Shown here one piece after another: positions 17,746 to 35,788 of a stretch of 64,000 bases of DNA. The stretch is from positions 93,555-157,554 of the forward strand of contig JAPPBY010000014.1 of NCBI GenBank assembly GCA_026702615.1, read 5' to 3'. Made by a program: the position numbers and the translations under genes. The notes under the pieces were generated by a model that was given only the letters and a program-made list of their open reading frames with translations, had not been told where the DNA came from and ran no database searches. The stretch's first letter is position 1, and every line of letters starts with the position of its first letter. This DNA comes from Chloroflexota bacterium. Lineage in GTDB: Bacteria; Chloroflexota; Dehalococcoidia; Tepidiformales; Tepidiformaceae.

Positions 17746-18918
17746 CTACGAGCGCGGCAGCCCCAGGCCCCGCGTCGCGATGATGTTGCGGTTCACTTCG
17801 CTCGTGCCGCCGGCGACCGTGTAGCTCGGGCCCGCCAGCGCCCACCGCTCGACGCGCCCCTGCAACGGGACGTAGGGGCTGCCCGGTTCGAGCTGCCCCT
17901 CCATGCCGAGCACGCGCATCCCCGTCTGGCCCATCTGCCGCTGGAGCTCAGTGCCGAACACCTTCGAGATCGAGGCCTCGTAGTTCGGGTTCTCCCCTTC
18001 GCTCTGCATCTGCGCGACCCGGTAGCAGAGCCAGCGCCCCAACTCGAAGTCGATAGCCCGCGAGGCCAGCTCGTGCCGGATGTGGTGCGACGTCGACCCG
18101 CCGTCGCGGTCGCGCACGTAGTCGATGAGCGCCTCCAGCGTCGAGCGCGTCATGACGATGCGGTTGATGGAGCTGCGCTCCTGGTCGAGCGTCGCCGCCG
18201 CGACGTACCAGCCCCGATTCTCCTCGCCGATGCGGTTATCGATGGGGATGCGCACGTCGTCGAAGAAGACCTCGTTGAAGTGGGCCGCGTCCATCATGTT
18301 CACCAGCGGCCGCACGCTCACACCCGGCGACTCGATGTCGAGGATGAAATAGCTGATGCCGCGGTGCTTGGGTGCGTCCGGGTCCGTGCGCGCCAGCAGG
18401 ATGCCCCACTTCGCTCCGGTCGCCCAGCTCGTCCAGATCTTCTGGCCGTTCAGGACGTACTCGTCGCCGTCGCGGATGGCGCTCGACTGCAACGAGGCGA
18501 GGTCCGAACCCGCGCCCGGCTCGGAAAAGAGCTGGCAGAAGCGGGAGGTGCCGTCGCGCAGGCCGGGCAGCCAGCGATCCTGCTGCTCCTTCGTGCCCTC
18601 GTGCATGAGCGCCGGGCCAGCCAGCCAGACGCCCTGGTCGTAGGCTCCGGGGGCTCCGCGCGAGCTCATCTCCTCCATGTAGACGGTCTGCGTGACGAAA
18701 TCCGCGCCGCCTCCGCCGTACTCCTTCGGCCAGCCCAGCGTCAGCCAGCCGCGGTCCGCCAGCTGCGCCCGGAACTGCTTGGCAAAGGCCGCCTCTTCCT
18801 CGTCCATCTCTTCGCGATCGCTGCGCATGTTCCACATGTCCGCAGGCAGCTCCGCGTCGAGAAACTCGCGGATCTCCGCGCGGAATGCGGCTTGCTCGGG
18901 CGAGTCGCGGAAGAGCAC
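17746..18918 (-). CDS. acyl-CoA dehydrogenase family protein
   Basis: The 390-residue protein has the full acyl-CoA dehydrogenase plan: LADRGWLTLGWPKEYGG in the N-domain, FSEPGAGSDLAS and VLNGQKIWTSWA in the flavin-binding beta domain, and a C-terminal bundle ending YTVAGGTSEVNRNIIATRGL. The GTSEVNRNIIA ending marks the subfamily that acts on branched, steroid-side-chain or unusual acyl-CoAs. The start is GTG. It lies six bases after the peroxiredoxin stop and below an enoyl-CoA hydratase, so all three likely form one operon. Confidence 0.88.
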   Translation of the reverse strand: MLFRDSPEQAAFRAEIREFLDAELPADMWNMRSDREEMDEEEAAFAKQFRAQLADRGWLTLGWPKEYGGGGADFVTQTVYMEEMSSRGAPGAYDQGVWLAGPALMHEGTKEQQDRWLPGLRDGTSRFCQLFSEPGAGSDLASLQSSAIRDGDEYVLNGQKIWTSWATGAKWGILLARTDPDAPKHRGISYFILDIESPGVSVRPLVNMMDAAHFNEVFFDDVRIPIDNRIGEENRGWYVAAATLDQERSSINRIVMTRSTLEALIDYVRDRDGGSTSHHIRHELASRAIDFELGRWLCYRVAQMQSEGENPNYEASISKVFGTELQRQMGQTGMRVLGMEGQLEPGSPYVPLQGRVERWALAGPSYTVAGGTSEVNRNIIATRGLGLPRS

Positions 18919-18924
18919 GGGGAC

Positions 18925-19386
18925 CTAGCCTTCGTTCAGCTCGCGCAGCGCTTCGAGCGCGTGCGGCGCGTGCGATTCGAAGTCGCGCGGCTCCAGGTAG
19001 ACATCACGCACGATGCCCGCGCTGTCGATCACGAAGGTCGCGCGGTTATGGAAACCGAAGTCCTCGTTGAAGATCTCGTAGTCGCGCCCCGCCTGGTTCT
19101 TCGGGAAGTCCGAGACAAGGGGGAACTCCAGCCCGAGCTTCTCCTGGAACTCGCCGACGGCGGCGAAGGAATCGACGCTCACGCCCAGAACCTGGGCGTT
19201 GGCCTCCGCGAACGCATCCGTGTGCGTGCGGAAGCCGATCATCTCGGATGTTCACCCACCGGTGAAGGCGAGCGGATAAAACGCCAGGACGATGTTCTTG
19301 CCGGGGAACGAGTCGAGCGTGACCTGTTCCCGGTCCTTGTTCATCAGCGTGAACGCCGGAGCGCGGTCACCGGGTGCTGGAGGCAT
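18925..19386 (-). CDS. selenocysteine-containing peroxiredoxin (UGA at residue 45)
   Basis: An AhpC/TSA-family thiol peroxidase reduces peroxides. Read from the ATG at 19386, preceded by AAGGAG, the frame encodes [20 protein letters not shown] and then [12 protein letters not shown] (19252-19254), [14 protein letters not shown] and a normal C-terminal half. The TGA falls exactly at the peroxidatic Cys of the FTxxCTSE motif. With it read as selenocysteine the product is 153 residues, the usual length. There is no other cysteine, so the enzyme would be one-Sec with no resolving thiol. Conservation on both sides of the TGA argues against a pseudogene. A 6-bp inverted repeat (19245-19250 with 19215-19220) just after the UGA may be part of a SECIS. 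sel genes must lie elsewhere. An ordinary gene caller would keep only the part after 19242. Confidence 0.82.
19215..19250 (-). promoter_or_regulatory. candidate bacterial SECIS hairpin
   Basis: One base after the UGA, CATCCG can pair with CGGATG 24 bases later, enclosing a smaller CGG-CTT-CCG stem-loop. An alternative hairpin is ACGCA-CACGGA-TGCGT, with a GG-containing loop about 30 bases from the UGA. Position within the first 40 bases after UGA suits a bacterial SECIS, but which fold forms is undecided. Confidence 0.4.
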
Positions 19387-19402
19387 GTTGTTCTCCTTGT
19401 CG

Positions 19403-20209
19403 CTAGTAGCCCTTGAAGTTGGGCTCGCGTTTCTCGGTGAAGGCGAGGGGGCCCTCCTTCGCGTCCTCGGTGGACTGCGCGAGGGTCATCGCCATCTGGG
19501 CGAAATCGAGGTGTTCGTCGAAGGTCAGGTTGGCGGAGCGGTAGACGAGCTTCTTTGCGAGCTGGATGGCCGTCGCCGGCCCCCGCGCGACTTTCTGGGC
19601 GAACTCGCGCGTGCGGTCCAGTAGCTCCTCGGGCGGGCAAACCTCGCTCACATAGCCGATGCGCAGCGCTTCCTGCGCATCCAACAGCTCACCGCTCCAG
19701 ATGAGCTCCAGCGCCTTGGCCGTGCCCACGATGCGGGGCAGCGTATAGGCGCCGCCGTCGCCCGGGATGAGGCCCATGCGCACATAGCCCATGCCGAAGC
19801 GCGCCCGCTCGCTGGCGAAGCGGATGTCGGCCATCGAGGCCATGTCCATCCCCGCGCCCACGGCTGCGCCGTTAACGGCGGCGATGTACGGCTTCTCGAG
19901 CTGCACCAGCGCCCGGGGGATGTGGTGGACGCTGTTGCGGAGGCTGTGTCGCCGCTCCGCGACGCTCTCCTCCGTGCGCAGCACGCCCTCGCCCGCGGTT
20001 TCGTGGGCGACATCCATGCCGCTGCAGAACCCGCGCCCGGCGCCGGTCAGGATGATGACCCGCACGTCGCCATCCGCATCCGAGCGCTCGATGGCGTCCC
20101 GCCACTCGCTCAGCATCAGGTTGTCGAAGGCGTTCAGCCGCTCCGGCCGGTTCAGGGTGATCGTCGCGATGCCGTCCGCCACGTCGTAGAGGATGTGTTG
20201 GTAGTCCAC
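19403..20209 (-). CDS. enoyl-CoA hydratase/isomerase family protein
   Basis: The 268-residue crotonase-fold protein has [29 protein letters not shown] (oxyanion-hole loop), [19 protein letters not shown] and [18 protein letters not shown]. It would hydrate enoyl-CoA esters or catalyse a related crotonase reaction. The start is GTG. It is the first gene of a likely three-gene operon with the selenocysteine peroxiredoxin and an acyl-CoA dehydrogenase, which suggests fatty acid or side-chain beta-oxidation with peroxide removal. Confidence 0.87.
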
Positions 20210-35115: not shown

Positions 35116-35317
35116 ATCAGAGCCCACCCTGCTTCCCCTAGCTTTGGTGGGGGACGTGGACGTGCTCTCGCGGCAGCGTGATGGCCGACATCCACGTAGG
35201 AGACGTAGCCTCCCACTCCTGCAGGGTGCTGACTCGCAACTCCCGCACTGTCCCCTGTGGCGCGCCCATCGCCTACGCCGTACGATCGCGGCTCCAATTT
35301 CTAATGTGAGGCGTGAC
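35116..35317. other. intergenic DNA at the right edge of the lower-GC block
   Basis: No gene is seen in these 202 bases. ACGTGGA near 35153 is repeated inverted as TCCACGT near 35189, a possible stem beyond the nuclease stop. TACGAT at 35281-35286 is a -10-like hexamer before the peroxiredoxin ATG at 35318. Confidence 0.45.
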
Positions 35318-35788
35318 ATGTCTGAGACGGCGACTTTGAAGGTGGGCGATGCGGCCCCGGATTTCGAGCTTCCCCAGAGCCCCATGGGTGACCCGGGTCC
35401 GTTCAAGCTGAGCGACCATCGTGGGTCGACGGTGGTGATTAACTTCGTGCCGGCGGCGTTCTCGCCGGTGTGCAGCAACCAGCTCCCGATCATCGAGGAG
35501 CAGCTGGGGAGCCTCGAGGGGGCGGTCACGGTCGCGATCTCGACGGATAACACGTGGTCGCTGGCGGCGTGGGCGCAGCAGGCGGGGGTGAGCTACCCGG
35601 TCCTGAGCGACTTCAACCCGATCGGGGCGACGGCGGAGGCGTACGGCGTCCTGCTGCCGGGGATGAACATGGCGAACCGCGTTGTGGTGGTGGTCGACGG
35701 CGAGGGGAACGTGGCGCACATCGAGACGGCGCCGGCGGTCGTTGAGCTGCCGGACTATGGTCCGGTGCTCGCTTGCGTCTCCGGCTAG
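35318..35788 (+). CDS. peroxiredoxin (AhpE-like, cysteine form)
   Basis: The 156-residue AhpC/TSA protein has VGDAAPDFELPQSPMGDPG and the peroxidatic motif FVPAAFSPVCSNQLP, with Cys near 52. One further Cys lies near the C-terminus (VLACVSG), a possible resolving residue. It reduces hydroperoxides. It offers an in-window comparison for the selenocysteine paralogue at 18.9-19.4 kb: same fold, same active-site position, Cys instead of UGA. Upstream TACGAT at 35281 may be its -10. Confidence 0.88.
   Translation: MSETATLKVGDAAPDFELPQSPMGDPGPFKLSDHRGSTVVINFVPAAFSPVCSNQLPIIEEQLGSLEGAVTVAISTDNTWSLAAWAQQAGVSYPVLSDFNPIGATAEAYGVLLPGMNMANRVVVVVDGEGNVAHIETAPAVVELPDYGPVLACVSG

Follow-up and report, generated by a model that had tools for sequence, protein, structure and literature searches.

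Within a window of 64,000 nucleotides from a Chloroflexota genome (the whole stretch of DNA that was analyzed), a gene for a peroxiredoxin of the AhpC/TSA type carries an in-frame TGA at the codon where the catalytic cysteine would be specified. The locus raises two questions: whether this UGA is read as selenocysteine (Sec) and, if so, which element of the mRNA would direct the decoding. From comparison of gene and genome sequences, we predict with high confidence that the gene encodes an AhpE-like peroxiredoxin whose catalytic-cysteine UGA is read as Sec, directed by two conserved hairpins (termed A and B here), the second of which is the likely SelB-binding one.

The gene occupies positions 18925 to 19386 on the minus strand and comprises 153 codons including the UGA. 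It begins with an ATG (19386-19384) and ends with a TAG stop (18927-18925); the initial annotation, which gave no strand, had reported a good ribosome site, and AGGAG is found at 19393-19397 (minus strand), six bases before the ATG. The TGA is codon 45 (19252-19254, minus strand), lies at the peroxidatic position of the PxxxTxxC/U motif, and is the predicted Sec codon. When TGA is read as U, the product is 153 amino acids long, contains FTGG-U-TSEM with U as residue 45, and has zero cysteines. The Pfam AhpC-TSA match (122.6 bits) spans both halves of this product, from residue 5 to residue 128. As such, three earlier claims hold for the translated protein: that the N- and C-halves of the AhpC/TSA domain are intact, that the TGA falls exactly at the active-site position, and that no other cysteine is present. 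The cysteine paralogue that had been placed 16 kb away corresponds to a frame on the plus strand (35144-35788, ∼16 kb away) for a Cys-containing redoxin relative (PAAFSPVC), which has Cys at the aligned site and is 24% identical (E 4e-12).

Among characterized groups, the product scores 56.9 bits with the NCBIfam PrxU model (NF040737), for which the curated cut-off is 270, and 82 versus 140 bits with PRK09437. Its best sequence match among solved structures is AhpE (Mycobacterium tuberculosis Rv2238c; 83 bits), which it further resembles in the absence of a resolving cysteine and in the aligned Thr and Arg: Thr42, Sec45, and Arg115 all align with AhpE positions, and R116A is a named AhpE mutant. 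The protein differs from AhpE in the Sec codon that replaces the Cys codon, in an identity of only ∼35%, and in the outcome of a fold search. For this search, an AlphaFold2 model with Cys in place of Sec was used (mean pLDDT 91.7, from a 20-sequence alignment); Bcp-type peroxiredoxins were returned first, with Bcp1 of Sulfolobus at the top and AhpE from rank 25. Typical PrxQ/BCP enzymes possess a resolving Cys five residues past the peroxidatic Cys, and the present gene, unlike these, encodes no Cys at +5. In the predicted catalytic cycle, the selenolate of Sec45 would attack hydroperoxides with the assistance of Thr42 and Arg115. Since the chain contains no resolving or second Cys, reduction of the selenenic acid is expected to depend on an external partner, either a thiol or a redoxin. 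Such a step would parallel that of mycobacterial AhpE, a one-Cys peroxiredoxin for which mycoredoxin or mycothiol has been described as the reductant of the sulfenic acid (PMC4360819).

The source assembly (2.87 Mb in 38 contigs, 95% complete) contains the Sec-decoding genes that the initial annotation had proposed to look for. A tRNA-Sec was detected at 71.1 bits, over the cut-off, and ARAGORN likewise calls a tRNA-Sec, with anticodon tca. The selA, selB, and selD genes were retrieved at 515.9, 298.7, and 347.4 bits, respectively, and the selD gene carries a TGA of its own. All three are present in 9/9 genomes of the genus, the present one included. In a set comprising this genome and 59 relatives, a UGA homologue of the peroxiredoxin was counted in 29 of 60 genomes, a count that omits weaker matches (e.g., a one-TGA match of 36% identity in genome G053). 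In all 29 of these genomes, selA or selB scores above the cut-off (selB in 28 and selA in 26), while 14 of the 31 genomes without a counted UGA homologue have neither (Fisher p 2e-5). No selB over the cut-off was found in genome G011. At a threshold of E 1e-65, selB was found in 36/40 genomes with a Sec-peroxiredoxin versus 0/3 genomes with a Cys orthologue (p 0.003); the four UGA-peroxiredoxin genomes that gave no selB at this threshold are G171, G277, G080, and G129. Co-occurrence of SelA and SelB has also been described for the majority of sponge symbiont bins, in the accessible part of that report (PMC5649159).

Orthologues (E 1e-25 or better) were retrieved from 25 of the 38 genomes of the family. 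Each contains one TGA, which is at the aligned codon in 25/25, with an uninterrupted reading frame to either side of it in the 25 family loci; locus L035 additionally contains a TAA near the gene end. A class-wide search of 393 genomes gave a similar picture, in that the best 46 among the matches listed all have an in-frame TGA and rank ahead of the first Cys match. A total of 109 loci were parsed for comparison, with the aligned site being TGA in 69 (Sec loci) and TGC or TGT in 40 (Cys loci). The Sec loci were drawn from the best UGA matches and are a subset of the UGA rows listed; all loci are mutually related, and counts made on them are not independent. Conservation of TxxU, an earlier proposed check, is borne out by a Thr or Ser at position -3 from U in 69/69 Sec loci, and a Pro is found at -7 in 39/69, including the present gene. 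Most of these proteins are free of cysteine (23/25 in the family set and 53/69 overall), and a Cys at +5 occurs in 1/69 Sec loci versus 34/40 Cys loci. Given the sel genes in the genome, the retention of the UGA in orthologues, and the pattern of selB in Sec versus Cys genomes, there is hardly any doubt that this UGA specifies selenocysteine.

In the published model of the bacterial SECIS element, the loop has 3 to 9 nt with a G in the first two positions, the stem has 4 to 16 bp, the MFE is ≤-7.5, and the apical loop is 16 to 37 nt past the UGA, although not every bacterial SECIS conforms to it (PMC13188914). The initial annotation had suggested folding the 50 bases after the UGA. Conserved hairpins were indeed found downstream, but the predicted SECIS is not an ordinary stem-loop confined to that interval. 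Hairpin A (19201-19236, minus strand) covers nucleotides 16 to 51 past the UGA, has its loop at 29 nt, and is predicted to be a folded spacer of the SECIS. Hairpin B (19181-19199, minus strand), with the sequence ACGCCCAG-GUU-CUGGGCGU, has its loop 60 nt past the UGA and is predicted to be the SelB-binding part. A long-range stem that encloses both hairpins is a further possibility (19163-19251, minus strand, formed by 19238-19251 with 19163-19176). This stem is weak and is best developed in the family: its pairing is 81% for the 25 loci of the family set, 63% when the full set of 69 Sec loci is taken, and 52% for the 40 Cys loci.

Hairpin B is visible in the codon usage of the family. Across 24 family genes, synonymous variation is low from approximately codon -4 to codon +23 around the UGA, and hairpin B, GCCCAG-GUN-CUGGGC, is built from codons 19 to 23. 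Ala19 (GCC), Gln20 (CAG), and Gly23 (GGC) are invariant and Leu22 is nearly so, while the wobble base of Val21, the codon that forms the loop, is free. Just outside these codons, the wobble base of codon 18 faces the first of codon 24, as C-G in 14 of the 24 family rows (L020-L043) and as U-A in the other 10; this outer pair is non-standard in 22/69 Sec loci. Hairpin B shows covariation: when all 69 Sec loci are considered, 90% of the cells of hairpin B are paired versus 21 to 45% upon sliding, and 35 two-sided changes were counted versus 11.8 after shuffling. At least 6 of the 8 pairs are formed in 61/69 Sec loci versus 6/40 Cys loci. Fewer are formed in eight Sec loci (L046, L047, L049, L159, L163, and L172-L174); for L046, L047, and L163, an alternative register permits a hairpin, and the remaining ones appear to be without B. 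Other lineages keep the hairpin with different amino acids (e.g., GCCCGC-GUG-GUGGGC). The apex is G-U in 64/69 Sec loci but also in 32/40 Cys loci; the GU of the loop is uninformative by itself because it belongs to a conserved Val codon common to the Cys loci.

Hairpin A is strong in single folds, but its register shifts between lineages, such that 67% of its cells are paired in one register. Folding energies were used to compare both hairpins with controls. The mean energies for the 69 Sec loci are -20.3 kcal/mol for A and -13.0 kcal/mol for B, versus -9.3 and -6.6 kcal/mol for the 40 Cys loci. When the Sec proteins were encoded by random synonymous codons, means of -12.7 (A) and -7.9 (B) were obtained, and the natural sequences are stronger (p about 1e-12). 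Cys loci gave no such excess over their codon-randomized versions (p 0.57 for A and 0.55 for B). At the level of single loci, the 5% mark of codon randomization was passed by A in 43/69 and by B in 37/69 Sec loci, versus 2/40 and 3/40 Cys loci (z-scores for the hairpins were based on 100 shuffles each). The codon-randomized and Cys-locus controls thus show that the hairpins are not a by-product of base composition or of the encoded protein. RNAalifold recovered hairpin B and part of A from the 24 family sequences and returned zero pairs for all 69 Sec sequences, for which the evidence consists of single folds and of counting a named structure. Rfam searches around the peroxiredoxin gene gave nothing relevant (a single match, E 1.7, to an unrelated family), and those at the selD locus of the same genome gave three matches (E 0.98 to 4.3) far under the gathering scores.

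The selD genes of the class provide a point of reference for the role of each hairpin. For this set, 30 class loci were fetched, 29 of which have a UGA, with positions assigned by BLAST mapping. The sequence CAGGUNCUG is found 31 to 39 nt past the UGA in 19/29 UGA selD genes, and local folds of 16/29, including that of the present genome, contain a GU-first loop 33 nt past the UGA. In the selD of the present genome (L018, G000:C8:40194-41129), itself a UGA gene, the hairpin reads GGCG-CAG-GUU-CUG-U-CGCC. The selD hairpins resemble B in their CAG-GUN-CUG core and in their location within the coding region, downstream of the UGA; they differ from it in that the loop is at 33 nt instead of 60 nt. 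Relative to the consensus bacterial SECIS, hairpin B has the expected features of a 3-nt loop starting with G-U, an 8-bp stem, and an energy below -7.5 kcal/mol. What sets it apart is the loop at 60 nt in place of 16 to 37 nt and the second conserved hairpin that lies between it and the UGA.

The position of hairpin A suggests another assignment, in which Sec decoding is unchanged but SelB binds A as the SECIS, leaving B with an accessory role, for instance that of setting ribosome pausing or recoding efficiency. With its loop at 29 nt, A is inside the published 16- to 37-nt range, and it is the stronger of the two hairpins and is under synonymous constraint. However, its loop in the present gene starts with AC and offers no G, and when the 54 nt that follow the UGA were folded, the best structure had a loop within the range and a G at its first or second position in 13/69 Sec loci, which is no commoner than the 11/40 seen in Cys controls. 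Moreover, the register of A shifts by lineage, whereas B is kept in one register in 61/69 loci and resembles a hairpin of 16 to 19 of 29 selD genes. We therefore regard A as an unlikely SelB-binding site, while giving this assignment considerably more weight than either of the alternatives discussed below.

SelB contacts the G and U bases of the SECIS loop. Since B fits the published model in all but spacing and resembles the selD hairpins, and since in-range G loops are no commoner in Sec than in Cys loci, we infer that hairpin B is likely the SelB anchor and hairpin A the folded spacer. In this model, SelB would dock at the GU loop of B, at a distance of 60 nt from the UGA, while folding of A would take up the RNA in between and thereby place B near the mRNA entrance of the ribosome. 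Whether this arrangement applies to the class in general, with Dehalococcoidia using a bipartite long-range SECIS that consists of a GU-loop SelB hairpin 60 nt away and an obligatory second hairpin that folds out the RNA between, is a proposal that we hold at even credence. If it is true, bacterial Sec insertion would tolerate, or would measure, folded rather than linear distance. The UGA peroxiredoxin loci L159 and L170-L174, from other Dehalococcoidia families, have weak A and B hairpins at the tested places and may use another SECIS. Searching the present genome for the pattern CNCAGGTNCTGNG gave 14 places, versus 6 for the reversed pattern. Besides the peroxiredoxin, two of these places (L199 and L203) had an upstream TGA in a frame that passed a length filter; both were considered as selenoproteins and set aside, as their translations were unconvincing by eye. 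The exact B motif was thus recognized in no further selenoprotein of this genome.

A more trivial origin of the TGA would be a sequencing error, a pseudogene, or a truncated protein that restarts at Met49. Databases do carry 105-aa entries whose first residue is Met49 or its counterpart, four codons past the UGA (P0008, unnamed; P0019, redoxin; and P0043, hypothetical). A protein produced by such a restart would be without the active site, and the TGA is kept in 25/25 family orthologues that come from separate genomes. Purifying selection acts on both halves of the gene, with a median dN/dS of 0.14 for the N-half and 0.27 for the C-half (8 loci; 23 and 22 of 28 pairs, respectively, were left after saturated pairs were dropped), and the codons around the UGA are under synonymous constraint. 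According to the initial annotation, a genome devoid of sel genes, or relatives with TGC at this position and surrounding frameshifts, would point to an error or a decayed gene; instead, the sel genes are present, all 25 family frames are open, and the Cys relatives are intact genes. Error, decay, or restart is thus very improbable. Reassignment of the UGA to another amino acid in this lineage, or its suppression by an ordinary tRNA, has nothing in its favor except the in-frame TGA itself and is even less credible, given the tRNA-Sec with anticodon tca, the use of TGA as the terminating codon in 13/69 of the Sec-peroxiredoxin genes, the presence of Cys, not Trp, at the site in 16 full-length database relatives (55 to 67% identical), and a hairpin strength in excess with UGA but not with Cys codons.

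The peroxiredoxin gene is directly preceded by an enoyl-CoA hydratase (ECH) family gene (19403-20209, minus strand) and directly followed by an acyl-CoA dehydrogenase (ACAD) gene (17746-18918, minus strand). Based on the listed open reading frames, the three share a strand, with ECH ending 16 nt upstream and ACAD starting 6 nt downstream of the peroxiredoxin frame. From this placement, a tie to a peroxide-generating operon had been proposed. The neighborhood itself stands and recurs in 9/9 loci of the genus (L041-L044 among them), but its retention is limited: in the family set, both genes are within the fetched stretch in just 13/25 loci, one of the two in 7, and neither in 5, several stretches being short. 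No ACAD match was found in the fetched stretches of the 44 loci outside the family, 10 of which have ECH matches downstream that are weaker and more distant (34 to 47% identity). ACADs normally hand electrons to ETF, and the link to peroxide production is therefore a weak one, offered as a guess.

Sec-containing peroxiredoxins are not new in themselves, one being known from Eubacterium acidaminophilum. Those with TxxU have long been listed, as far as the available portions of the relevant papers extend (PMC1088965, PMC1794560, PMC9312934, and PMC13188914). Compared with the enzymes described there, the present one is alike in its AhpC/TSA fold, in a Sec codon at the peroxidatic place of T/SxxU, and in the Sec genes of its genome. 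It is unlike them in a score far under the PrxU cut-off, in the lack of Cys in 23/25 family members, in the two-hairpin layout, and in its Dehalococcoidia lineage. A literature search, the coverage of which left out most subscription journals and included some papers in part, returned no report of a Dehalococcoidia Sec-peroxiredoxin lineage or of the two-hairpin layout. Within that coverage, the enzyme is of a known type, for which it represents a new lineage, and the novelty lies in the layout of the SECIS. The analysis brings to light a group of predicted Sec enzymes that is widespread in Dehalococcoidia and appears in databases as 105-aa fragments. In addition, the spacing required by the published bacterial SECIS model does not hold for this hairpin layout, and the maximum distance between SECIS and UGA in bacteria becomes a directly testable question. 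For this purpose, the 69 Sec and 40 Cys genes offer a ready comparison set, together with natural Sec/Cys switches, of which three occur in genomes that yielded no selB.

These switches were placed on a tree of 125 rows, in which Cys orthologues fall inside the Sec clade. The Sec/Cys label takes 10 changes on this tree, at least 6 of which are forced by supported branches, and a single clade for the 19 Cys orthologues was rejected by the AU test (p-AU 1e-61); both results pertain to short rows, with long branches flagged and AhpE rows not included. For the Cys-orthologue loci L176-L178, selB, the only gene sought, was not found in the respective genomes (96%, 75%, and 67% complete). Hairpin B is absent from these three, the Cys orthologues within the Sec clade whose DNA was checked. 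In one of them, L178 (G346:C12), hairpin A nonetheless still folds strongly (-21.3, z -4.8) and is possibly a remnant of a SECIS.
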